From an uncultured Granulosicoccaceae bacterium (GTDB lineage Bacteria > Pseudomonadota > Gammaproteobacteria > Granulosicoccales > Granulosicoccaceae), in contig CALFCF010000056.1 in assembly GCA_937951345.1 (NCBI GenBank), positions 1-64,000 of the forward strand: 64,000 bases of DNA. Direction: 5' to 3'. Shown here in pieces: positions 15,773-30,520 of the stretch. Position 1 is the stretch's first letter; the number at the start of each line of letters is the position of its first letter. Below the pieces are notes generated by a model. That model was given only the letters and a program-made list of their open reading frames with translations. It searched no databases and had not been told where the DNA came from. Both the position numbers and the translations under genes were made by a program.

Positions 15773-17815
15773 ATGCCCCAAGACACACCGCAACGAGAAA
15801 TCCTGGTTACCGCAGCACTACCCTATGCCAATGGCCCGCTTCATATCGGGCATATGCTGGAGTATGTCCAGTGCGATGTATGGGTGAGGTTTCAACGCCT
15901 GATTGGCAACACCTGTACCTGGGTGTGGGCCGATGACGCACACGGCACCCCTATCATGCTGCGCGCCGAACACGAAGGCATTTCCCCTCTGGAACTGACC
16001 GAGCGCATCAAGCAAGAGCATGAGCGCGACATTGAAGGCTTCTTGTTATCGCCGGACAATTTCCATACAACACATTCCGACGAAAACCGCGAGCTTGCAG
16101 AAATGGTCTATCGGCGCAATCGCGATGCGGGGTTGATCGTCAAGCGCACCATTGCACAACTCTACGACGCTGAAAAAAACATGTTTCTGCCGGATCGTTA
16201 CGTCAAGGGGATTTGCCCTAACTGCAACACACCGGATCAGTATGGTGACAACTGCGAAAAATGCAGCGCCACCTACGACGCTACCGAACTCAAGGAACCG
16301 TATTCAGTGATGTCGGGCAGCAAACCCGTACTAAGGGATTCGGAGCAGTATTTCTTTGCGTTGTCGAAATATACAGACTGGCTCAGTAACTGGACAACCA
16401 GCGGTACTTTGCAACCCGAAATCGCAAATAAAATACGTGAATGGCTGGATGCCGGTCTGCAAGACTGGGACATATCCCGTAATGCTCCGTACTGGGGGTT
16501 TGAAATCCCTGATGCACCCGGAAAATATTTCTATGTCTGGCTGGATGCACCGATAGGCTACATCGCAAGCCACAAGAATCTGATGGACCAACGCGGCGAA
16601 AACTTTATGGACGCCTGGCAGCAGGATTCGACGGTCGAGCTCTACCACTTTATCGGTAAAGACATTGCGAATTTTCATACGTTGTTCTGGCCAGCCATGC
16701 TCGATGGCGCCGATTTGCGCAAACCCAACGGTGTTTTTTGCCACGGCTTTCTGATGGTCGACGACGCCAAGATGAGTAAGTCGCGCGGAACGTTTGTATC
16801 GTGCGAAACTTATCTCAAGCACCTGGATCCAGAATACTTGCGTTACTATTTCGCCGCAAAGCTCAATAGCGGTGTCGCAGATTTCAACTTGCAGCTTGAT
16901 GATTTTGTACTGCGCGTCAATGCAGATCTGGTCGGCAAGGTTGTCAATATAGCGAGTCGCTGTGCAGGCTTTATCACTAAACAGTTTGACGGCAAGCTTG
17001 CTAACACTTTACCAGACGATGCTGCGCAGACGTATCAAGACATGTTGAACAGCTGGGGTGATATACAAAACCATTACGAGGGCCGTGAATACGGCAAAGC
17101 CATGCGCGAAATTATGCTGTTAGCTGAAAAAGCCAACAGCTACATAGCCGATGCCGAGCCCTGGGTGCGCATCAAGGACGAAAACTCGCGCGATGAGGTA
17201 CAGCAAATCTGCACCGCCGGTATAAATTTTTACCGAATGATTGTTACGTTTCTGGCTCCTGTTCTGCCGAATCTGGCAGATAAAACCGAAACGTTTTTAA
17301 ACGCAGAATTGAATCTGGCTTCATTAGACAATCCATTGCTTGATCACTCGATCGAAAAATACAAACCGATGATGACACGGATAGAAGAAAAGAGTATTCA
17401 ACAAATGATTGACGACAGCAAAGAAGATATCAGCAATTTTTCCAAATCCGCAGTGACGAGCGGGCCTCTGGCCGACGAGCCTGTAAAAGACGAAATCGAA
17501 TACGGAGATTTCGACAAAGTGGATTTCCGTGTGGCGCGTATTGTCGAAGCCAAACAGGTCGAGGGTGCTGACAAATTACTGCAACTCACGCTCGATATTG
17601 GCGGAGAAACACGAAACGTTTTTGCCGGTATCAAATCAGCGTACAACCCTGACGATCTGGAAGGTCGTCTGACAGTTATGGTGGCTAACCTTAAGCCACG
17701 CAAAATGCGCTTTGGTATGTCGGAAGGCATGGTACTGGCAGCAGGCCCCGGGGGTTCGGACTTGTTTATTTTAAATCCGGACGAGGGTGCAGAACCCGGC
17801 ATGCGCGTTAAATAA
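15773..17815 (+). CDS. metG: Methionyl-tRNA synthetase
   Basis: 680 residues, class I synthetase charging tRNA-Met. HIGH is at 24-27 and KMSKS at 333-337. The zinc knuckle cysteines are C148, C151, C161 and C164. A C-terminal EMAP/Trbp111-type tRNA-binding domain (about 578-680) begins at [20 protein letters not shown] and supports dimerisation. The rsxA gene starts 20 bases after the stop, so metG and the Rnf genes may share a transcript. Confidence 0.98.
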
Positions 17816-17835
17816 AAACCGACAGACCTGCATAT

Positions 17836-18423
17836 ATGTCCAATTGGTTTTTACTTATTGTCAGTACCGCGCTTGTTAATAATTTTGTACTGGTACGATT
17901 TCTTGGTCTTTGCCCCTTTATGGGTGTCTCGCGCAGTATAGACACTGCTCTCGGAATGGGTTTTGCGACAACTTTTGTACTGACGCTGGCAGCCGGGCTC
18001 AGTTTTTTACTGAACACACTGATTCTTCAACCGCTGGACGCAGGCTTTCTGCGCATCATCGCGTTTATCGCCCTTATCGCTGCTTTGGTGCAGTTCACCG
18101 AGTTGTGGATACGCATGGCAAGCCCGTTACTTCATCGCCTGCTGGGGTTGTATTTACCGCTGATTACGACAAACTGTGCCGTACTGGGTGTCGCGCTTAT
18201 AACGACGCGTGAACAAACATCACTTGCTGGAGCCGTCGTATCCGGATTCGGTGCGGCACTTGGCTTTACGCTGGTTCTCGTGATGTTCGCCGCACTCAGA
18301 GAGCGTCTCGATACTGCTGACATTCCAAAACCATTAAAGGGAAGCGCTATTGCTTTAGTAACCGCTGGCATCATGTCACTGGCATTCATGGGTTTTGCCG
18401 GCATGGACAAAGGCTTGACCTGA
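17836..18423 (+). CDS. rsxA: Rnf electron-transport complex subunit A
   Basis: 195 residues, six membrane helices. It is an integral subunit of the Rnf complex, which couples electron flow between NADH and ferredoxin to ion movement; in E. coli the same complex (Rsx) keeps SoxR reduced. The family signature [16 protein letters not shown] is at about 20-35. Homologous to RsxE, as is usual. It opens the run rsxA-rsxB-rsxC. Confidence 0.96.
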
Positions 18424-18435
18424 TCAACTATTGTC

Positions 18436-18951
18436 ATGTCCGCCATATTTGCTGCACTCGCTATTGCCTTTCTGACTACACTGGCGGCATGGTTGTTGTC
18501 AATTGCGGCACGACGTCTGCCGGCAGATGAATCTTCATTGGTTGAACAGGTTAATGCACTGCTGCCGCAGACTCAGTGCGCGCAGTGCAATTACCCCGGT
18601 TGTCGCCCCTATGCCGAAGCGATTGTTAATGGCAAAGCCGACATTAATCAGTGCCCCCCCGGCGGTGATAGCGGCATTAAAGCGTTGGCTGATTTACTCG
18701 GAAAACGAGTGATTCCATTGAATGATCAACTTGAACCACACAAAGAACCTCAGATTGCAGTAATTCGCGAGGACGAATGTATTGGTTGCACACTATGCAT
18801 TAGCGCATGTCCAGTAGATGCTATTGTTGGTGCATCAAAAAAGATGCATACCATAATTTCACACCATTGCACCGGGTGCGAACTGTGCCTGCCACCCTGT
18901 CCGGTTGATTGTATTGATCTCGTCCTGTCTGATGCAGCAGTGACGCAGTGA
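18436..18951 (+). CDS. rsxB: Rnf complex ferredoxin subunit B
   Basis: 171 residues. An N-terminal membrane anchor covers residues 3-25. Then comes an Fe-S domain with C48, C51, C56 and C73, and two [4Fe-4S] ferredoxin motifs: C115, C118, C121, C125 and C145, C148, C151, C155. All expected cluster ligands are present. The sequence is slightly shorter than the enterobacterial protein. The stop overlaps the GTG start of rsxC by four bases (GTGA), which points to translational coupling. Confidence 0.96.
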
Positions 18952-20645
18952 AACGACCGGACGCAAAACGCCTGCTGTCAGGACTCGTAACCGAGCACGC
19001 AGGCTTATCAACACATTTGCTGGACAGCAATTACTGGCACCAGATTAACAACCCGATCCTCAATGCGATTGCAGGTCTTGCCGTCGATAAAAATATTTCC
19101 CTCGCTCAACCCACAAGCACAAAGATTGAATCGATCGATCTTCCCGGCACCGTGTATTTACCCTTGCACTACCGCGGCAAAACTCTCACACCGGCAGTTG
19201 AGAAAAATCAGTCTGTTTCCAGAGGCCAGTCACTTGTCTATCCAGCTATCGATGCTGCTGACAACACACCAAAACCGGGATTGAAGTCACCGGTACACGG
19301 CGTTGTCAGCGAGTGTCAACTAGAAATAAAAGTAACAGCAGACGGGCTGCCGCTCAGGTTTATTGCAGTAGACACGGATGACAACCAATCGGTTGATACC
19401 TCTAACTACAAAAGCGACTTTTCGCCCGCCTGGGCGACGGCCAACACCGATCAGCGTCTACAGTTATTGGTTGACCACGGCATTGTTGGCCACGGTGGTG
19501 GTGGGTTTTTGCTTGCCAATAAACTGCGTGCGAATATTCATACGCTGGTGATTAACGCAGTTGAATGTGAGCCATTGATCTCGTGCGATCGCGTCTTGCT
19601 CCACCACAAACCGAATGAAATTTTGCTCGGTATACTTGCATTGATATCACTAACGAACTGCAAGCAGTGTCTGATAGCAACAGAAACTTCGCAGAATGAC
19701 ACATCGATGCCAGATAATTCTCTGGCCGAGGCAGTAGATCTACTGCGCAAGAATCAACCGAACGACGAAATCGATTTGCTGTTCGAGCGAATTAGTTTTC
19801 ATTCAGTCAGGCGGCAGTATCCAGCTGGTGCTGAACGCGTGTTGATTAAATCCTTAACCGGTAAAGTTATCGAAAGCAACAAAACACCAGCTGACTATGG
19901 CATTTGTTGTGTCAACGTAGCTACCTGCCACGCGCTGTATCCAGTGGCCTACCATGACATGCCCCCTGAATATCGTGTCGTCACAGTCAGCGGGGACGCG
20001 GTGGCAAAAGGCAGCGGAGCGATCAGTCGTAACTTCTTGACTCCGATCGGCACGCCAATCAGAAAGCTATTAGAGGCAACCGGTGCACTAAACCAGGATG
20101 ACACATCACGAAAAGTACTCCGTGTTCTGCAAGGCGGACCTTTGTGTGGAACGGAACTGGAATCTCTGGATACACCGGTCACGCAACAGACTCACTGTGT
20201 AATCGCAACATTTTCACCTGCAGTCTCTGCAGCCAATGCGTGCATCCGCTGCACCACTTGTCAGGACGTTTGCCCGGTTAACTTAATGCCGCAGGAATTG
20301 CATCGACTGATCCGGGTTGATGACATAACGGCCGCAGCAGAGATGAATCTGCAGGATTGCCTCTTGTGCGGGTATTGCGACCTCGTCTGCCCGAGCCAGA
20401 TCCCGCTCACGCGGCAGTTCAGGCGTGCAAGACAGTCACTCCACGAGCAAGCGCAAACCAGACAACTGGCATTGCTTGCCGAAGCCCGGTTCGAACAGCG
20501 ACAACAACGGTTGGATAAAAAAGCAAAAGAGAAGGAGCAGCTTCGGGCTGAGCGTCGCAGCAAAGCAACCAGCGACTCAGCTAGAAAGCAGGCTATCGAC
20601 GCGGCACTGAGTCGCGTGCGTGATCGCAAACAGAATTCTGAATAA
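18948..20645 (+). CDS. rsxC: Rnf complex NADH-binding subunit C
   Basis: 565 residues, GTG start inside the end of rsxB. RsxC is the peripheral subunit that takes electrons from NADH through FMN. The glycine-rich nucleotide region is near 180-190 ([14 protein letters not shown]). Two [4Fe-4S] motifs are intact: C432, C435, C438, C442 and C471, C474, C477, C481. After residue 482 comes a short Gln/Lys/Arg-rich helical tail of about 80 residues, much shorter than the Ala-rich repeat tail of the E. coli protein. It is convergent with a thioesterase gene instead of running into rsxD. Confidence 0.95.
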
Positions 20646-20717
20646 TTTATCTTTGGAACCTAAGATTTATCGAGACAGAAAAGCCGCACTAGTTAACAAT
20701 CTCTCGCACCAGCACGA

Positions 20718-21158
20718 TCAAAGCTCGTCAAGATTCTGGAGGACATAATCGGGCAGTTCGGATTTATCCGGAATCGGACGGGGACAACCGTCATCGTCAA
20801 CCGAAACAAATGTAAAAGTAGCTTCGGTGACTTTTTCGCGCACGCCAATGCGGTCGCGACGCACCCAGGCCTCTACACGAATATCAAGAGACGAACGGCC
20901 AACGCGCGTAATGTTCGCATAGACACCGAGTACATCACCCACTTTAACCGGGCGAATAAAGCTCATGGCTTCAATGGCAGCTGTCACCACCCGACCCTGG
21001 GCCCGTTGACCGGCACAGACACCACCGGCGATATCCATCTGCGACAATACCCAGCCACCAAAAATGTCACCTGATGGATTGGTATCACCGGGCATGGCCA
21101 TCGTACGGATTGTCGGGGATTTATCGGGATACTCGCTATCACTGGACATGACATTCAT
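20718..21158 (-). CDS. yciA: Acyl-CoA thioesterase, YciA-type hotdog protein
   Basis: 146 residues with a single hotdog fold. It hydrolyses acyl-CoA thioesters in the cytoplasm. The family hallmarks are PGDTNPSGDIFGGWVLSQMD (residues 23-42, including the catalytic aspartate region) and the hydrophobic strand pattern of VVTAAIEAMSFIRPVKVGDV. It lies antisense between rsxC and rsxD and is divergent from rsxD, sharing a 95-base promoter region that contains a 9-bp inverted repeat. The symbol is by similarity to E. coli YciA; the exact substrate is not known. Confidence 0.88.
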   Translation of the reverse strand: MNVMSSDSEYPDKSPTIRTMAMPGDTNPSGDIFGGWVLSQMDIAGGVCAGQRAQGRVVTAAIEAMSFIRPVKVGDVLGVYANITRVGRSSLDIRVEAWVRRDRIGVREKVTEATFTFVSVDDDGCPRPIPDKSELPDYVLQNLDEL

Positions 21159-21206
21159 ACTTCAGGTCTTAAAGGGCTTTATCAGATTATGGTACAACTA
21201 ACGGAA

Positions 21207-21244
21207 CATACCGAAGAAGTTGACTCAGCGCGACATTCGGTATG
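21207..21244. promoter_or_regulatory. Inverted repeat in the yciA-rsxD divergent promoter
   Basis: CATACCGAA (21207-21215) and its exact complement TTCGGTATG (21236-21244) are separated by 20 bases. The arms lie two helical turns plus a little apart, centre to centre about 29 bases. A plus-strand TTGACT at 21220-21225 lies between them, with TATGAC at 21241-21246 as a possible -10 at a short 15-base spacing. A dimeric regulator binding here could control both genes. No known operator was recognised. Confidence 0.45.
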
Positions 21245-21253
21245 ACATAGCGA

Positions 21254-22294
21254 TTGAACCTCAACCGGTACGCAGTGAACGCAACTTCACATCACCCCAA
21301 CCCAGCTACTGACGTCAATCGTATGATGCGTCAGGTGATGTTTGCGCTCGCCCCGGGTACGTTGGTTTATGCATGGCTGTTCAACACCGCGATTGTCATA
21401 CAAATAGTGCTTTGCTGTTTTAGTTGTGTTCTAACAGAAGCGCTCATTCTAAAACTGAGAAAAAGAGCAGCTCTGCCAATTGTGAAAGATGGCAGTGCGA
21501 TACTCGCAGGCTGGTTGCTAGCACTCGCAATACCTCCCATTGCACCTTGGTGGATAGCCATAACCGGCGGTGCACTGGCGATGTTGTTGGGCAAACATTT
21601 ATACGGCGGGCTTGGATTCAACCCGTTCAACCCTGCCATGGTGGGGTATGCGTTTCTTCTGGTGTCCTTTCCGACCGAGATGACGCAATGGCCAGTGGAC
21701 AATCTTTCTAACGCACTGCCTGCCGCCGGATTTATCGATTCGACTCTCGCTATCTTTGGACAAGGGTCAGGAATGTCAGCTGACTGGGATGCACTGACGC
21801 GGGCAACCCCGCTTGATCGCTTAAAACAATTCAATACCTATACAGATCCGGCAGCTACAGGCACTGATCTTCCGGATGTTTACGGCCTGTTCGGCTTACA
21901 TCTCTGGGAATGGATTAACGTGGCGTGGTTGATGGGTGGTATCTGGTTGCTTTGGCAACGTGTTATTTCCTGGCAACCCCCTGTATTTGTGTTGTCGGGG
22001 TTGTTTCTGTCGCAATTACTAATCTGGTGGCTGCACAACGGCAATGCCCTGAGCCCGTTTGCATCCTTGTTTGCAGGCAGTGCCATGCTGGGTGCATTCT
22101 TTATAGCAACAGATCCGGTAAGTTCTGCGACGACACCCCTGGGTAAAATTATTTTTGCACTGGGTATCGGGGTGCTGACCAGCATAATCCGCCAATACAG
22201 CAGCTACCCTGAGGGAATTGCGTTTGCAGTTTTACTGATGAATTGTATGGCGCCGGTACTTGATCACTTTTGCAAGCGTCAGAGGTATCGGTGA
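21254..22294 (+). CDS. rsxD: Rnf complex membrane subunit D
   Basis: 346 residues from a TTG; a GTG at 21275 is an equally possible start, and neither has a clear ribosome-binding site. RsxD is an integral subunit related to NqrB and carries a covalently bound FMN on a threonine; the likely site is in SATT at 291-294. Family features are the nine or so membrane helices and LYGGLGFNPFNPAMVGYAFL near 116-135. The stop codon overlaps the GTG start of rsxG by four bases. Confidence 0.94.
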   Translation: MNLNRYAVNATSHHPNPATDVNRMMRQVMFALAPGTLVYAWLFNTAIVIQIVLCCFSCVLTEALILKLRKRAALPIVKDGSAILAGWLLALAIPPIAPWWIAITGGALAMLLGKHLYGGLGFNPFNPAMVGYAFLLVSFPTEMTQWPVDNLSNALPAAGFIDSTLAIFGQGSGMSADWDALTRATPLDRLKQFNTYTDPAATGTDLPDVYGLFGLHLWEWINVAWLMGGIWLLWQRVISWQPPVFVLSGLFLSQLLIWWLHNGNALSPFASLFAGSAMLGAFFIATDPVSSATTPLGKIIFALGIGVLTSIIRQYSSYPEGIAFAVLLMNCMAPVLDHFCKRQRYR

Positions 22295-22899
22295 CAGCAG
22301 AACGCACATCATCTGTGTCTACCGTCGCGTGGATCGCGGGTGTTTGCACACTATTGGTCGCCAGTATCTGGCTGCTGGCTGAACCGCGAATAAAACGTGC
22401 CGAAACACAGTATTTTGCGACGCAAATAGCAGCTGTGCTGTCTGACATACATTTTGATAACAGAATCACCAGCGATACGCTGGAGCTTGAATCATTGCAC
22501 GGCCGGGTGACTGTGTACCGTGCCCGCGAAAACGGTATCCCGGTGGCCGCTGTCTATGATGCTGTGACGCTAAGGGGTTATTCCGGTTTGATCAGGGTGC
22601 TGGTTGGCATCGATAGTAACGGTGAAATTACCGGCGTGCGGGTGATCTCGCACCGCGAAACACCCGGCCTTGGTGATAGCATAGAGATCAGCAAATCCGA
22701 CTGGATTACCGGATTCGACAACTTATCACTGAATAGCCTTCTTCCGGCAGACTGGCAGGTTAAGAAAGACGGCGGGCAGTTTGATCAATTCACCGGCGCG
22801 ACAATTACACCCCGAGCAATCGTTAACCTGGTGCATGATATGTTAAAGCTACACAGCGAAAAATCGAATCTTGTATTCAATCACACTGCAAATAACTAA
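22291..22899 (+). CDS. rsxG: Rnf complex FMN-binding subunit G
   Basis: 202 residues from the GTG at 22291, chosen because AGAGG lies 5 bases upstream and because it overlaps the rsxD stop as GTGA, like the rsxB-rsxC junction. A TTG at 22270 would add seven residues. One N-terminal membrane helix anchors a periplasmic FMN-binding domain. The flavinylation motif is TGAT at 168-171, so T171 would carry FMN, placed by the ApbE transferase, which is not encoded in this window. Confidence 0.95.
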   Translation: MTAERTSSVSTVAWIAGVCTLLVASIWLLAEPRIKRAETQYFATQIAAVLSDIHFDNRITSDTLELESLHGRVTVYRARENGIPVAAVYDAVTLRGYSGLIRVLVGIDSNGEITGVRVISHRETPGLGDSIEISKSDWITGFDNLSLNSLLPADWQVKKDGGQFDQFTGATITPRAIVNLVHDMLKLHSEKSNLVFNHTANN

Positions 22900-22909
22900 C
22901 ACGTGTTAG

Positions 22910-23569
22910 ATGGCACACACTCAAATATCAAACACGGAAAACGCGGTAACGAAACCTGGCGAGAATTCGCCTATGGGCGCAGTGAGTGCCGTGAGCACAA
23001 CTGACTTTTCCGCAGACAACATGCCAGCTGCCAAAAGTCTCTGGTGGGATGGATTATGGCGCAACAATGCCGGCGTCGTGCAACTACTCGGTCTTTGTCC
23101 ACTCCTGGCTGTCAGCACCTCTGTTGCCAATGCATTTGTACTGGGTATTGCAACCTTAGCGACTCTGCTTGTATCCAATACACTGGTATCGCTTATCCGT
23201 CATCGACTGGAACCGCAAAATCGTATTCTGATATACGTGCTTATAATTGCAAGCGCCGTCACTGTTGTAGATATTATCCTACAGGCCTTGATGCCAGCCA
23301 TGCATAATACGCTTGGATTATTCATACCGCTAATTGTGACCAATTGCATGATCGTCGGTCGTGCCGAAGTTTTCGCATCGCGCCGCCCGGTGGGCGCCTC
23401 TGTAATAGATGCAATCGCGACTGGCACAGGATTTTTTCTGTTACTTTGTCTTATAGGCTCTATCCGTGAATTTGCGGGATCGACTGGTCTGATAATAGCG
23501 CTGCTACCACCGGGAGCATTCTTTGCACTTGCTCTGATCCTTGTTGTAAAAAACCTGATTGATAGTTAA
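22910..23569 (+). CDS. rsxE: Rnf complex membrane subunit E
   Basis: 219 residues with six membrane helices, homologous to RsxA. The characteristic segment NNAGVVQLLGLCPLLAVST is near residues 52-70. An N-terminal stretch of about 40 residues is Ser/Thr/Ala-rich and longer than usual. The next gene starts directly on the stop codon (23569). Confidence 0.95.
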   Translation: MAHTQISNTENAVTKPGENSPMGAVSAVSTTDFSADNMPAAKSLWWDGLWRNNAGVVQLLGLCPLLAVSTSVANAFVLGIATLATLLVSNTLVSLIRHRLEPQNRILIYVLIIASAVTVVDIILQALMPAMHNTLGLFIPLIVTNCMIVGRAEVFASRRPVGASVIDAIATGTGFFLLLCLIGSIREFAGSTGLIIALLPPGAFFALALILVVKNLIDS

Positions 23570-24021
23570 TGTTTTTGTCATCCAATCCACAGACCGATCG
23601 CCGTCAGCACCGACTGATGTTTCGTGACGCCTGGCGCAAACAGCAAGCGGAACAAACGCTCACTCCGCTCGAAAAACAAATTGTATCCGTCATAACAGAA
23701 CATCCTGAATATCACAATATCGTGTCATCACTGCGCGACGATGAACCGGTTGAATTGCTCGACTTTAGTCAAGCAGCAAGTGTTGACAACCCGTTTCTAC
23801 ATATGGGACTGCATTTGGCACTGCGTGAGCAGGTCGGCACAGACCGCCCGGTCGGCATAAAGCTGATTACACGCCAACTGCTCGCCCGCTATCCCGGTGA
23901 CGGGCATCATGTCGAACACTTGATGATGGAAAAACTCGCCGGTATGTTGTATCAGGCACAATCCAGCAACCAGGCCCCCGATGAGCAGGAATATCTGGAG
24001 TCTTTGAAACATCTGATCTAG
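23569..24021 (+). CDS. DUF1841 family protein
   Basis: 150 residues, a conserved proteobacterial family of unknown function. Recognised by the pattern ITEHPEYHNIV (about 43-53) and NPFLHMGLHLALREQ (about 75-89), followed by DRPVGI and a helical C-terminus. It is soluble and helical with no membrane segment. Its ATG overlaps the rsxE stop by one base, so it is translated with the Rnf genes here; in many Gammaproteobacteria the gene in this position is nth, which is absent. Confidence 0.85.
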   Translation: MFLSSNPQTDRRQHRLMFRDAWRKQQAEQTLTPLEKQIVSVITEHPEYHNIVSSLRDDEPVELLDFSQAASVDNPFLHMGLHLALREQVGTDRPVGIKLITRQLLARYPGDGHHVEHLMMEKLAGMLYQAQSSNQAPDEQEYLESLKHLI

Positions 24022-24104: not shown

Positions 24105-24965
24105 ATGACCTACACCGTTCTGAAAAAACACAAACAGCAATTTAGCGACAACGGTTTTGTTGTTGTAGATCAATTGATCAACCAGTCACAACTTACCGGG
24201 TTGCACCAGGCATTCGAAGATCTGTTCAACGGCAATTTTGAAACCGGTGTCAGACCCGACGAGGTCAACTGGCAGCAGTCAACCGGTGACCCGACACTCA
24301 CCCGACAGATATGTAATGGCTGGAAGTCGGACCGCCGTATTGCTGAAGTCGTGCTTGATCAATCGCTCGGAAAAGCAATCGCAGAATTTACCGGCTGGTC
24401 CGGTGTGCGCATTATGATCGACAACGTAATCTGGAAACCGGCAGGAACCAAGTCATTGGGATTTCATCAGGACAATGCCTATCTCAGTTGGTTTAACCCG
24501 GGTGAAATTGCAACATGCTGGATCGCGCTTGATGATACAACGGCAAAAGGGGGGACGATCGAATTTGCACGTGGCTCACATAAATGGCTGTTGCGGGAAC
24601 CGAAAGGAGATTTTCATGCACCTGAAGACTATAAACAAACACTAAGTAACGCAGCACAGCTAGCCGGTGTAGACCCTGATGTACACTATGTTGAAGTCAA
24701 AGCCGGTGGCGGATCATTTCATCACGGTAAGACCTGGCATGGCTCGGGACCAAACCAGTCAAGTAACCCGCGGCGCTCGCTGGTGCTGCATGCCATGCCG
24801 GATAAGGTAGAGTTCGTGCCTGATAACTTCGATAAAGGTATCGGCCCTATTTACAGTCGCTACAAGCGCTTAGGTGACAACCAGCTCGATGAAAATTATT
24901 TCCCGGTTTTATGGCGAAAGGATGGCTACAGAACGCCAGCTATTGATGACTTTTTGAAAACCTAA
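24105..24965 (+). CDS. Phytanoyl-CoA dioxygenase (PhyH) family protein
   Basis: 286 residues, a non-heme Fe(II)/2-oxoglutarate-dependent dioxygenase fold. The metal ligands are H121 and D123 (FHQDNAYLSW) and H212 (GKTWHGSGPN). An arginine pair after it (NPRRSL) fits 2-oxoglutarate binding. The substrate cannot be told; family members hydroxylate acyl-CoAs, small amino-acid derivatives or natural products. The last base of its TAA stop is the first base of an R1 repeat. Confidence 0.88.
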   Translation: MTYTVLKKHKQQFSDNGFVVVDQLINQSQLTGLHQAFEDLFNGNFETGVRPDEVNWQQSTGDPTLTRQICNGWKSDRRIAEVVLDQSLGKAIAEFTGWSGVRIMIDNVIWKPAGTKSLGFHQDNAYLSWFNPGEIATCWIALDDTTAKGGTIEFARGSHKWLLREPKGDFHAPEDYKQTLSNAAQLAGVDPDVHYVEVKAGGGSFHHGKTWHGSGPNQSSNPRRSLVLHAMPDKVEFVPDNFDKGIGPIYSRYKRLGDNQLDENYFPVLWRKDGYRTPAIDDFLKT

Positions 24966-25107
24966 GGAACCTCTGATTTATTAGGCGAGGCAGACAGGGC
25001 AAGGCGAAATTTGGCGAAAAAGCGGAGTGTATATGCGAATACATGAGCATTTTGAACCGAATTTCAACACAGCCCTGGCAACGCAGGCGATAAATCAGAG
25101 GTTCCCT
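24965..25107. repeat. R1-family inverted-repeat element, copy 2
   Basis: 143 bases bounded by AGGAACCTCTGATTTATT and ATAAATCAGAGGTTCCCT. The interior matches copy 1 and copy 3 with a few substitutions. TAA is found directly on both outer sides (24963-24965 and 25107-25109), which may be a target duplication. It begins on the stop codon of the dioxygenase gene. Confidence 0.92.
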
Positions 25108-25244
25108 AACCGGTTTTCAGCTTTGCGGTTGGCTACTGCTGTAATTTCCGATTGCCGCAATCCTGATTCCTGCTTCGAGCGCGAATAACAACGGCGAATA
25201 ACAATGGCGAACAACAACAGCAAATGACAACGATTCTGTAATCA

Positions 25245-26810
25245 CTACAAGGGTATTTTCTGCAAAACACCTTTCTCCGGCTTACCCGTTGACGTTCGCG
25301 GCATTTCATCAAGTATTGTTATCACCGCTGGCACCATAAACTTGGCAAGGTGTTCCCGGCAGTGCTGAAGAATATCATCCACTGTACAGGACGCTGCTGG
25401 TTTCAATGTGACAAACGCCCGAATATCCTCTTCCCCGAATTCCGATGGAATCCCTACTGCTGCCGCATCCTCAATGTCGGGATGACACAGCAACCCTTCC
25501 TCGACCTCAAAGCCGGAAACCATTTCGCCACGTACTCTGATTCGTTCTGCCATGCGGCAACGAAAATAAAACAAACCCTCTTCATCCATACAGCCGATAT
25601 CACCGGTATGGAACCAGAGATTGCGTCGACTGGCCAATGTACGCTCGGGCATTCCAAAGTAGCCGTCTGACATAACACCGGCTTCACGCGGTCGAATAAC
25701 CATCTCACCATCCACGCCGGCAGGTACCGGATCATCGTTGGCATCAATAATAGCCACTTCAAAATGTGGAAGTACGACACCACCTTCGTGATCCCACTGC
25801 GGAACCACTACCCATCCGGCATCTGTCGAACCATAACCACCACCTGGAATTAAATGCAGGTTAAAACGCGCTTCAAAATCTTGCTTGGGTACTGGAGCCG
25901 GCGTTGACCAGCATCGTGTGACTTTATGTTGTTTCTCTTCTGGTCGGACAGGTTCGGAATAGAGCAATTGTTGGACAGAGCCCAGACACATAAACCAGGT
26001 AACGTTTTCCCGCGCAACTTCCGGCCAGAATGCCGACAAACTGAAGCCGTCACGCAGTACAACACGCCCACCCAGCATAAACATCGGCAACATATCGTAG
26101 AATGCCGGGCCAATATGCGACAACGGGTAAGGCGTGTAGTTAACGTCCTCACCAGTTAACCGAAAGGGTTCGATCATGTTCTCGGCTGTTCTGACCGCAT
26201 AGCGGTGAGACAACATACAACCTTTGGATACACCAGTTGTTCCGGACGTAAACATAATTACTGCCAGATCAGTGTCGGATGCTGGCGAAACAATGTGATC
26301 ACATCGTTCAGCTAGCAATGCCCCGTATCGCATAACATCGAGATGTGGAAAGCGATGCGGTGCATCATCAAGCTCACCAACAACCACAATCCAGCGCAGA
26401 TGACTTAGCCCATCAATAACATCAAGAATCGGATCAAAATGAACAGCAGACGTGATCAGGGTATCTGTTTCCGTTAAATTCAGCATACGCAGCAATGCCT
26501 GCCCACGGAATGCCCGGTTAACAGAGACTTCAACACGATTTATTTTCTTGAGTGCATAACTCAGTGCAACATACTCGATCGAATTCTCGAGCATTATTGC
26601 AACACAAGAGTTAGATAGATCGTCTGAAGTGCCGACACGCTCTGCTTCAGGCGATATCGCTATCAGGCCATGCGCAAGCCGGTTTATCAGCGCCTCGAGT
26701 TGGCCGTAAGTGATTTGCCTGCCGTCTGGAACTGTTGTTATACAGGTTCTTTCTGAATAGGTAGTCGCACAGCGGTGGAATAGCTCCCCCAGAGTTATTC
26801 GTTGAGACAT
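25245..26810 (-). CDS. AMP-forming acyl-CoA synthetase
   Basis: 521 residues, ANL superfamily. It would activate a carboxylic acid with ATP and transfer it to CoA. The P-loop-like motif TSGTTGVSKG is at 188-197, the A5 motif YGSTDAGW follows in mid-protein, and WFHTGDIG with the hinge region comes later. The C-terminal catalytic lysine is K510 in TSTGKPEK. The overall pattern resembles crotonobetaine/carnitine-CoA ligase and long-chain ligases; the substrate is not predictable by eye. It is read toward the PhyH gene and the two could share a pathway, but this is only a guess from proximity. Confidence 0.88.
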   Translation of the reverse strand: MSQRITLGELFHRCATTYSERTCITTVPDGRQITYGQLEALINRLAHGLIAISPEAERVGTSDDLSNSCVAIMLENSIEYVALSYALKKINRVEVSVNRAFRGQALLRMLNLTETDTLITSAVHFDPILDVIDGLSHLRWIVVVGELDDAPHRFPHLDVMRYGALLAERCDHIVSPASDTDLAVIMFTSGTTGVSKGCMLSHRYAVRTAENMIEPFRLTGEDVNYTPYPLSHIGPAFYDMLPMFMLGGRVVLRDGFSLSAFWPEVARENVTWFMCLGSVQQLLYSEPVRPEEKQHKVTRCWSTPAPVPKQDFEARFNLHLIPGGGYGSTDAGWVVVPQWDHEGGVVLPHFEVAIIDANDDPVPAGVDGEMVIRPREAGVMSDGYFGMPERTLASRRNLWFHTGDIGCMDEEGLFYFRCRMAERIRVRGEMVSGFEVEEGLLCHPDIEDAAAVGIPSEFGEEDIRAFVTLKPAASCTVDDILQHCREHLAKFMVPAVITILDEMPRTSTGKPEKGVLQKIPL

Positions 26811-26966: not shown

Positions 26967-28373
26967 TTATAATTTGATACCCAGCGCTTCTAGTGTTGCA
27001 AAAGTAATACCACCCTGGGCCATATTCTTGGATTTCTGGAACTGCTCAATGGCTTGCAGCGTGCTGCGACCCAGAACACCGTCAATACGTCCGGGGTTGA
27101 AACCGGCGTCAGACAGTGCCTGCTGAATGTCGGTAACTGTACTTTCAGTTGTATTGGTTTCGCACAATACGGGTCGCCATTCTAATCGGGCGTCTGATAC
27201 TTTTACACGCTTGATGTAGTCTTTCTTGATTTCCGGCACCGGCGTCTTTTTGACAGTTGCATCAGCGACCAGCTTCTCAACAGAGACATTCTTGAATACC
27301 GCAGGTACTTCTACCTTGGTGAAAGAACCAGGTGTTTTAACTACCTTTTGTTCGATCGTCGCAAATTTGGCTGGCTCCTCAGTGAAACACACAACATTGC
27401 CTGTGTGCTTACCGTGTAGAGCAGCATCACCAGGAGCACCAGCGACCCATTTCAAACCACCCTGACTAACAAGCTCTGTCTTATCAACTGAATCGTAGGT
27501 TGCAGGTACCGGAGTACGTACTTCACGTGCATCGGTAACCAGAGTTTCCACGTCAAAGTTATCAAATTCGGCTGGCACAACTACCGCAGTAGTCAGAGGC
27601 GGTGCCGAAATGGCTTTGCGTTGAAAGGTTTCGTAGACAGCAGGAATATCGACAAGACACATGATCTCACCTGTGGCATTGTCAATCTTCATGATAGGAC
27701 CTGTACCTTTCTTCCAGACAGATTTCGCTGGCTCGATAAGCACCTTGTCTTCCACTGTTTCGAATACAGCCGGAACTTCAATTAATCGTTTGGATGCGGC
27801 TCGCACCATAACCTGCTTGGCAGCGGAGTTGAAGGTAGCCCCCTGTACAGACAACTCTTCACTCGCGGCCGAGATCATGACCTTTTCCTGCACTGTTTTA
27901 TAAACAGCCGGCTTGTGGTGTTCATAGAAGCACTGACCGGGGTTAACGTTATTCGTATTGATACCGGACGCCCGAAGGTCTGCCAGAGTACCTGAGCTGA
28001 CACCAACAGTTCCATCCAGCCCGTCACGAACCCACTTCTGTTCGGCAGCGGCTGTTTGCACCTTTTTCTCGACGGTTTCATATACCGGTTCAACAACGGA
28101 CAGTTCACTGAATTTGTCTTTGACCAATACACGATCAACAGTCGACGTATATTTGGCAGCGATTATCTCGAGCTCTTCGGTAGCTTCGCGAACGACTACT
28201 TCAACACTTTCAGTCTTGAATACCGGCGGCACGAGGACTTTGGCGTAGCACTCACCGGAACTGGCATCAGGTAATACATCTGCATCCTGATTAGCAGACA
28301 CTGTGCTGACACTCAGTCCTGTATACAAAGTCACAAGGGACGCTACAACACTCACTTTAAATTTGGTCATCAT
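26967..28373 (-). CDS. Secreted protein with four Cys-to-Trp repeat modules and a peptidoglycan-binding domain
   Basis: 468 residues. A signal peptide ends near VSA at 25-27. Four modules follow, each opened by a cysteine and closed by a tryptophan at constant spacing: C42-W114, C148-W220, C239-W309 and C329-W399. Each module holds three beats of the form PAVYxTVxxKV followed by about 12 residues, about twelve beats in all. The C-terminus (about 413-468) is a PG_binding_1 domain (IQQALSDAGFNPGRIDGVLG). A fifth lone cysteine, C404, lies just before that domain. AGGA sits 6 bases before the first ATG. It is divergent from an L,D-transpeptidase gene and has its own terminator. I recognise the beat pattern from other periplasmic proteins but know no function for it. 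Confidence 0.82.
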   Translation of the reverse strand: MMTKFKVSVVASLVTLYTGLSVSTVSANQDADVLPDASSGECYAKVLVPPVFKTESVEVVVREATEELEIIAAKYTSTVDRVLVKDKFSELSVVEPVYETVEKKVQTAAAEQKWVRDGLDGTVGVSSGTLADLRASGINTNNVNPGQCFYEHHKPAVYKTVQEKVMISAASEELSVQGATFNSAAKQVMVRAASKRLIEVPAVFETVEDKVLIEPAKSVWKKGTGPIMKIDNATGEIMCLVDIPAVYETFQRKAISAPPLTTAVVVPAEFDNFDVETLVTDAREVRTPVPATYDSVDKTELVSQGGLKWVAGAPGDAALHGKHTGNVVCFTEEPAKFATIEQKVVKTPGSFTKVEVPAVFKNVSVEKLVADATVKKTPVPEIKKDYIKRVKVSDARLEWRPVLCETNTTESTVTDIQQALSDAGFNPGRIDGVLGRSTLQAIEQFQKSKNMAQGGITFATLEALGIKL

Positions 28374-28726: not shown

Positions 28727-30520
28727 ATGGTTGCCAGCACAAAATCCATCTTAGCCCTCGCATTCTTGATGTCGGCTACCAAAGCGGTGATCGCCGCAAA
28801 TCAGGGTGATCAGGACAGCTTCGATCAATCTATGATTCGATTCGCTCCTGGCTATGTGCACTCAGATGCAACGCTAAGCACAGCGCACAGCTCAGATCTG
28901 AATGATTTCAGCAGCTTTGCCAGCGGGACGTCCCTAACGATCAGCGGACATATAAATCGACAAATAAGATGGCAAAACACTGAACCCGGTTTGGGTGGTG
29001 CGCTACCTGAGATAGAGGGCGATGGTCAGTGGATTGCGAACTATATAGCCACTTCAGCAGAGAATCCGCTGTGGTACAGCAGCACAGGTTTAACAGATCA
29101 AGGAAGGGAGCTAATCGACCTGATTGCAAACAGTAGCAATGAAGGCATCAATGCTGAACTGATATCCAGTATCAATATTGATAGCTGGCAATCCGCGCAA
29201 TCCTCTCAGAATCCGGAAACTGCCAACAAATCACTTAACGATGCGTTTATCCGATTCTCGGAAATAATGGGTAGTGGTCTTGTAAATCCACAGATCACAC
29301 AAAAAGAATGGTACAGACCTGCAGACACTATTGATGCGTTACAACTGCGCCGGCAAATACAATCCGGTGTAATGACGGTTGCAGAAGCTATAGACAGCGT
29401 TCGCCCTCAACATAAAATGTACGCAGGCTTACGCTCTATGTTAGAGCAGTTAGAAAAAAGACGTTCGAGTAAACAAGTATTCGTCGACACATCCAAACCT
29501 CTGGAATTTGGCGAACAAGGCGAACATATTGTTCAACTTGGCCAAGCGCTGCAAGATCACGGCGATTTATCCTCCGACACACAAGTGAGCGATGTATTCG
29601 ATGATGGAATACAAACCGCAGTCAAAGCCTTTCAATCACGCCATGGCTTGAAAGCAGACGGTATCGTGACAAACAAAACACTGAAAGCATTGAACACGCC
29701 CATCACTCAAAGAATTGAACAAGTAAAAGCAAATCTTGAACGTTGGCGCTGGTTTCCAGCTGAACTGGAGAACACCAACATTCTGGTGAACATTCCAGAA
29801 TACCGCTTACATATGTCACTCGAAGGAAACGATATTTTTTCAATGGATGTTGTCGTTGGAAAACCACGGCACATGACACCTGTATTCAGCGAGACCATGA
29901 AGTTCATGGAATTCGCGCCTACCTGGACAGTACCGGCCAGTATCACCAATGAAGAACTATTGCCACTGGAAAACAGGAAGCCGGGTTATTTAGCCAGCGA
30001 GGAGATCGATTTCTACAGACGAACCTCCAGTGGCCTGGTCCACGTTCCAAGATCTCAGGTGACAGCTGAAGAGATGTCCATGCGCCCCTTTCCTTACGTT
30101 CTTCGTCAGCGCGCTGGTGATAAAAACGTACTTGGCAAAGTGAAATTCCTAATGCCAAACAAACACGCTATATACCTGCATGATACTCAAGCCAAAAAAC
30201 TGTTTGGAGAGAAACGCAGGGCATTCAGTCATGGCTGCATACGTCTGAGCAATCCAGATTTGATGGCTCATGTGCTTCTACAGGTCAACGGTTACGATCA
30301 ATCTGCCGTAAATGAATTCATGAATCTTGAAGAAACAACCCGTGTGAATCTTGACGAGCCGGTGCCTGTTCATCTGGCCTACTTCACTGCATGGATGGAC
30401 GGCGACGGGGTTATGCAATTCAGAGAAGATATATATCATCAAGACGAACGATTGATAAACGCCTTGCAATCATTGAATAAACCGACTGCATTGACTGCCA
30501 GTAACAGCGGCATTCAATAA
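28727..30520 (+). CDS. L,D-transpeptidase of the YcbB/LdtD type
   Basis: 597 residues. It forms 3-3 crosslinks between meso-diaminopimelate residues in peptidoglycan, in the periplasm. A signal peptide covers about 1-24 (cleavage near VIAA). An LdtD-type scaffold domain follows (NPLWYSSTGLTDQGRELIDL), then a PG_binding_1 domain at about 263-325 (ALQDHGDL and AVKAFQSRHGLKADGIV), then the YkuD catalytic domain. The active-site motif SHGCIRL places the nucleophile at C504, with the upstream histidine in YLHDTQAK. The family's usual length is about 600. It is divergent from the repeat-rich peptidoglycan-binding protein. Confidence 0.94.
   Translation: MVASTKSILALAFLMSATKAVIAANQGDQDSFDQSMIRFAPGYVHSDATLSTAHSSDLNDFSSFASGTSLTISGHINRQIRWQNTEPGLGGALPEIEGDGQWIANYIATSAENPLWYSSTGLTDQGRELIDLIANSSNEGINAELISSINIDSWQSAQSSQNPETANKSLNDAFIRFSEIMGSGLVNPQITQKEWYRPADTIDALQLRRQIQSGVMTVAEAIDSVRPQHKMYAGLRSMLEQLEKRRSSKQVFVDTSKPLEFGEQGEHIVQLGQALQDHGDLSSDTQVSDVFDDGIQTAVKAFQSRHGLKADGIVTNKTLKALNTPITQRIEQVKANLERWRWFPAELENTNILVNIPEYRLHMSLEGNDIFSMDVVVGKPRHMTPVFSETMKFMEFAPTWTVPASITNEELLPLENRKPGYLASEEIDFYRRTSSGLVHVPRSQVTAEEMSMRPFPYVLRQRAGDKNVLGKVKFLMPNKHAIYLHDTQAKKLFGEKRRAFSHGCIRLSNPDLMAHVLLQVNGYDQSAVNEFMNLEETTRVNLDEPVPVHLAYFTAWMDGDGVMQFREDIYHQDERLINALQSLNKPTALTASNSGIQ

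Follow-up and report, generated by a model that had tools for sequence, protein, structure and literature searches.

The window analysed here, a stretch of 64,000 nucleotides from an uncultured Granulosicoccaceae bacterium, encodes a protein that, judged by its sequence, is secreted and is predicted to bind the cell wall. It is built of twelve 23-residue repeats (beats), arranged in two halves of equal beat number that covary in antiparallel orientation across homologues. The repeats most likely form a single long beta ribbon of two antiparallel strands, and the protein is probably a peptidoglycan-anchored periplasmic spacer in which a giant beta-hairpin presents the loop at its tip. The anatomy of the protein is well supported, and its biological role is what we infer.

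Repeat rule and domain content

Within each of the four Cys-to-Trp modules of the protein (Table 1) the beats follow each other with a period of exactly 23 residues, beginning at residues 49, 72 and 95, at 155, 178 and 201, at 244, 267 and 290, and at 334, 357 and 380. Scored pairwise with BLOSUM62, the beats average 17.9, compared to -15.2 (sd 1.3) in 3000 shuffles (Z 25), and what a preliminary description of this DNA had counted as about twelve beats are exactly twelve. The same description gave spacings of 72, 72, 70 and 70 residues for C42-W114, C148-W220, C239-W309 and C329-W399, and these are exact in the open reading frame. They follow from a simple rule: each stretch starts with a Cys, which is followed by 7 or 5 residues and by n beats of 23 residues, and ends with a Trp that lies 19 residues into the last beat. 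The distance from the Cys to the first Pro is 7 residues in modules 1 and 2 and 5 residues in modules 3 and 4, and the Trp is in every module found at +19 relative to the first Pro of the last beat, so that 7+46+19=72 and 5+46+19=70 account fully for the spacings; the difference between 72 and 70 is a first strand that is two residues shorter in modules 3 and 4. Apart from the four module Cys there is only C404, a further conserved Cys that had been overlooked, and the protein has no Trp other than those at 114, 220, 309 and 399. An alignment of 69 homologues shows no variation at any of the five Cys or four Trp, and the spacing is therefore not due to chance. It is kept in 67 of 68 parsed homologues, where the parser accepted 68-73 residues per module and took only homologues whose Cys-Cys spacing was 106 +/- 3. 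The peptidoglycan-binding domain that had been read at the end of the chain is confirmed by Pfam as PG_binding_1 (PF01471; E 1.1e-9, 38.7 bits with a gathering score of 23). It is the sole Pfam domain above cut-off in the protein, and is present in 69 of 69 homologues scanned. The window protein has all the marks of a C-[23]n-W family: the 7/5 Cys cap, the 23-residue period, the Trp at +19 and the matched halves.

Table 1. Features of the repeat protein gene and its neighbour, in window coordinates
Feature	Position	Strand	Basis or remark
Repeat protein gene	26967..28373	(-)	468 aa ORF
Sec-type signal peptide, residues 1 to ~27 (..VSTVSA/NQ), no lipobox	28293..28373	(-)	sequence reading only
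Module 1, C42-W114, three 23-residue beats; proposed partner module 4	28032..28250	(-)	
Linker between modules 1 and 2, residues 115-147, predicted helix 127-135	27933..28031	(-)	structure prediction
Module 2, C148-W220, three beats; proposed partner module 3	27714..27932	(-)	
Proposed hairpin tip loop, residues 221-239 (KKGTGPIMKIDNATGEIMC)	27657..27713	(-)	conservation
Module 3, C239-W309, three beats	27447..27659	(-)	
Linker between modules 3 and 4, residues 310-328	27390..27446	(-)	
Module 4, C329-W399, three beats	27177..27389	(-)	
C404, fifth invariant Cys; putative base disulfide partner of C42	27162..27164	(-)	
PG_binding_1 domain, residues 411-464	26982..27143	(-)	Pfam
Divergent L,D-TRANSPEPTIDASE, LdtD-like (Scaffold + PG_binding_1 + YkuD)	28727..30520	(+)	neighbour in one subfamily

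Matched halves

The number n of beats per C-to-W stretch varies across Proteobacteria, with values of 2, 3, 4, 6 and 10. Among 189 distinct reading frames, 113 have the (3+3)/(3+3) arrangement, 53 are 4/4, 6 are 2/2, 5 are 3/3, 2 are 6/6 and one is 10/6, the rest being a few fragments or parse failures; the beat parser scored positions 1-19 only, and the cap Cys and the end Trp (+19) did not enter the score. Of the two-half proteins, 66 of 67 have halves with equal beat numbers, the exception being the 10/6 protein, and shifts from one class to another across the family keep the halves equal, though homologues share ancestry and the 180 parsed proteins are thus not independent cases. Wherever a cap Cys exists, it is Cys-7 in the N-terminal half and Cys-5 in the C-terminal half throughout.

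The 10/6 protein, the one clear case of unequal halves among two-half proteins, is encoded at a locus (L162, G537:C2:241500-245700) where two nearby family genes lie on one strand, the other one being 4/4. The beats of its long half are near-identical, suggesting a recent expansion. The extreme of the family is a 1632-residue open frame (L234, G004:C220:1-6500) with 51 beats in direct succession and a peptidoglycan domain at the C-terminus.

Covariation and cysteines

Because the modules contain no indels, 112 long-class sequences can be aligned without gaps. They were used for mean-field direct coupling analysis (about 79 effective sequences; about 79-166 for the covariation overall), in which parallel and antiparallel lines were scored for all module pairs, with the first Pro of each module as the origin for the register r+r'. 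The antiparallel line at r+r'=63, a value that came from the residue-level signal in the same data and is therefore no independent prediction for the long class, peaks for modules 2 x 3 (score 7.5) and 1 x 4 (7.0). None of the remaining four module pairings exceeds 3.5, and the local hairpin lines within modules are weak (at most 2.9). When both duplexes are pooled the score at 63 is 12.0, compared to at most 3.3 for species-shuffled partners and wrong module pairs, and among the top 60 inter-strand pairs 44 have sums of 60-66. For the 4/4 class the register of 86 had been stated beforehand, and the peak of 5.4 found there bears out an independent prediction; in this class the line test is significant, and a beat-level ranking (beat-block permutation test) is not. 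When two sequence sets without overlap were used, the peak was at 63 in three tests out of four, and in the remaining one it was at 65 with 63 ranking second; in the smaller set, which is biased towards Granulosicoccaceae, the control pair of modules 2 and 4 also has a weak peak at 63 (3.0). Antiparallel coupling of modules 1-4 and 2-3 at one register explains why the halves are matched. At register 63, positions 1-2 of a beat (Pro-Ala) lie opposite positions 15-16 (x-Ala), so that the predicted strand breaks coincide.

Two-half proteins usually have three cysteines, namely the N-cap, the C-cap located at the tip, and another that follows the last Trp. In three cases (L159, L196, L165) the tip Cys is lost and the N-cap and terminal Cys are retained, and several members that have no terminal Cys carry an additional one immediately ahead of the N-cap. 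This pattern of loss and gain, seen in few lineages, suggests a bond between the N-cap and the terminal Cys, which would be C42-C404 in the window protein. Disulfides in the repeat protein are plausible, and since five cap Cys is an odd number, at least one must lie outside any intrachain bond. An odd number (five here, three in two-half proteins) would also suit a strand-swapped dimer, where the N-terminal half of one chain pairs with the C-terminal half of another to give a double fibre bearing peptidoglycan domains at either end, leaving free Cys for interchain bonds, and covariation reads the same for pairing within and between chains. However, the 18-residue gap from W220 to C239 is enough to close a hairpin within one chain, and the length of the loop is nearly fixed, with a segment of 24 residues from the Trp to the first beat in 108 of 113 proteins. 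We consider such a dimer unlikely.

A probable wall-anchored hairpin

In the single-chain hairpin that we favour, the C-terminal PG_binding_1 domain would anchor the secreted spacer to peptidoglycan, the N-terminal half (modules 1 and 2, six beats) would run outward, and the C-terminal half (modules 3 and 4, six beats) would run back. Residues would oppose each other at a fixed register, and indels and unequal beat numbers would therefore be selected against. The ends of each ribbon would be capped by a Cys of one strand beside a Trp of the other, the Pro-Ala kinks at beat positions 1-2 would face the x-Ala kinks at positions 15-16, and besides C42-C404 a disulfide may perhaps also join C148 and C329. 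Both termini would be found at the wall-anchored base, with the conserved loop W220-C239 exposed at the far tip, where it probably serves as a partner-binding site, and the reach would be set by the number of beats. A straight ribbon would measure about 24 nm per three-beat duplex (72 x 0.33 nm), which is long for the periplasm, so that bending, or an orientation along the wall, would be required. The 10/6 protein and the one with 51 beats in a row fit this model poorly. The conservation of the tip loop is 0.86, compared to 0.60-0.63 for the modules, which places it among the two most conserved segments, though the probes of the genome scan were placed around W220-C239 and conservation there is partly selected; the loop is also present in the 4/4 class, which was found by whole profiles. 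In the preliminary description, the protein was seen as a wall-anchored scaffold of four separate modules. The idea of a wall-anchored scaffold is supported by the PG_binding_1 domain and by repeats that act as a single elongated beta structure; the separateness of the modules is not, given the covariation of modules 1-4 and 2-3.

This reading of the covariation predicts paired residues, bonded Cys and a displayed loop. It also implies that repeat copy number changes in both halves together, which would be an unusual constraint on repeat evolution. More tentatively, and with slightly less than even confidence, we propose that the family represents a new repeat architecture: a length-variable antiparallel two-stranded ribbon, made from one chain whose halves must match in their number of 23-residue repeats, that gives a reach anchored in the cell wall or a membrane and presents a conserved tip loop across Proteobacteria.

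Distribution of the family

A scan of species-level genomes found at least 284 loci encoding the repeat (80 kept), mostly in Gammaproteobacteria, and profile searches reached further Gammaproteobacteria as well as other proteobacterial classes. The wider members include small proteins without a peptidoglycan domain. Several paralogues per genome are frequent; in the window genome the family has three members, of which two have four modules and one is a two-half protein with a lipobox. A C48-type paralogue (L139 and others) has its own conserved neighbourhood in 14 loci, where a gene resembling membrane metal-dependent hydrolases lies immediately downstream, on the other strand. Members were also seen in contigs titled Halobacteria archaeon, Deltaproteobacteria and Desulfobacula (L044, L037 and L092), where mis-binning or a wider spread is possible. 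A search of plasmids and phages did not find the window protein; one unannotated plasmid from Methylobacterium bullatum carries a relative of the wider members.

In the window protein and its homologues, Pfam and NCBIfam found the peptidoglycan domain only, with no model for the beats, and in the wider members nothing that covers the repeats. A sequence search of the PDB gave no match to the repeats, and a literature search with beat peptides no relevant one. A match of the beats to a characterised domain would have contradicted the preliminary description, and none was found in the domain databases. By these sequence searches, the repeat family is widespread yet uncatalogued, being covered by no curated family model.

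Using a simple regular expression, a lipobox-like N-terminus was found in 84 of 180 parsed homologues (about half), 78 of which have a peptidoglycan domain too. Many of these lipoproteins are likely to tether the outer membrane to peptidoglycan. For the window protein this role is improbable: the signal peptide, in this protein as in its close relatives, is of the ordinary kind and lacks a lipobox, no Cys precedes C42, and in a hairpin both anchors would share the same end.

The L,D-transpeptidase neighbour

The divergent L,D-transpeptidase (Ldt) gene had been proposed to form a wall-remodelling pair with the repeat gene. The two are neighbours in nine loci of the window's subfamily (the window, L016 and L123-L129), even where Ldt identity falls to 37-55%, and insertions are located on the other side of the repeat gene, never between the two. 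This is in keeping with a dedicated partner that would recruit or position the LdtD-like enzyme for 3-3 cross-linking. However, the whole block of relA, mazG, Ldt, DUF1841 and rnf genes is syntenic (the names relA, mazG and rnf, as opposed to Ldt and DUF1841, were assigned by us from sequence). Eight genomes (L143-L150) have the same gene order with the Ldt at the same site but lack the repeat gene. In L130 the repeat gene and mazG are kept and other genes take the place of the Ldt, and in L015 the repeat gene is found elsewhere, without an adjacent Ldt. Elsewhere in the family, 55 loci are flanked by 2.5 kb or more on each side, and none of them had an Ldt in a search that used the three Ldts of the window genome as queries, so that very distant ones could be missed. 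A search for conserved neighbours found lineage-specific synteny only and no partner common to the whole family, and the co-occurrence or adjacency across the family that would mark an obligate partner was not seen. The linkage is limited to one subfamily and is thus a lineage-level arrangement, not a property of the family. The idea of a wall-remodelling pair is mostly not supported; the two genes are possibly co-regulated, and a dedicated partnership is unlikely.

Elsewhere in the window, positions 15773-24021 hold an Rnf-type gene cluster followed by DUF1841, which are conserved beside the Ldt locus in relatives. Genes for a PhyH dioxygenase and an AMP-binding enzyme (24105-26810) lie between DUF1841 and the repeat gene, a spot that holds little or nothing in most relatives.

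Structure prediction

The full-length AlphaFold prediction has alternating 7- and 12-residue strands with two residues between them, plus the peptidoglycan domain; the mean pLDDT is 77.8, with values up to 95 in strands and low values in parts of the linkers, and the pTM is only 0.47. A single module predicted alone, from an alignment mixing the four module types, had no strands (pTM 0.16). The lack of strands would be expected if a module needs its partner half to fold, but a technical cause is possible. An arrangement of four independent small beta domains, one after another, in which duplication history alone accounts for repeat number and spacing, would agree with confident local strands inside modules and low pLDDT in parts of the linkers, but this reading is improbable, given the antiparallel covariation of modules 1-4 and 2-3, the matching beat numbers of the halves, the weak hairpin lines within modules and the lone module that does not fold in silico. 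In fold searches, the peptidoglycan domain matched that of SltB3 (Z 9.1 over 63 residues), and searches of PDB and viral folds gave no significant match for the repeats. Fold matches to the repeats had very large rmsd and were discarded as meaningless.

Comparison with known systems

The C-terminal domain resembles those of other PG_binding_1 proteins, such as SltB3, CtpB and the N-terminal domain of SleB (fold Z at most 9.1). These proteins carry enzymes, whereas the remainder of the window protein consists of repeats without a Pfam or NCBIfam model. The His-Xaa-Ser repeat protein HxsA (TIGR03979) gave a partial NCBIfam match at residues 405-467, which is the peptidoglycan domain; membership was rejected at 36 bits, compared to a cut-off of 121.65. 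The likeness to LdtD/YcbB (PMC6428754) concerns the neighbouring Ldt and not the repeat protein: the Scaffold domain is present, and the score against NF007891 is 243.6 bits, under the cut-off of 425.

Further parallels are SasG and Aap with their G5-E repeats (PMC4458895) and the periscope proteins (PMC8201768), which are wall-anchored and elongated, have a length that depends on repeat number, and present a distal site. Pfam found no G5 match in the window protein at E values up to 10, and the likeness is one of analogy only. Those are found on the surface of Gram-positive bacteria and have their domains lined up one after another, whereas the chain of the window protein would fold back on itself, with both ends at the base and with matched halves.
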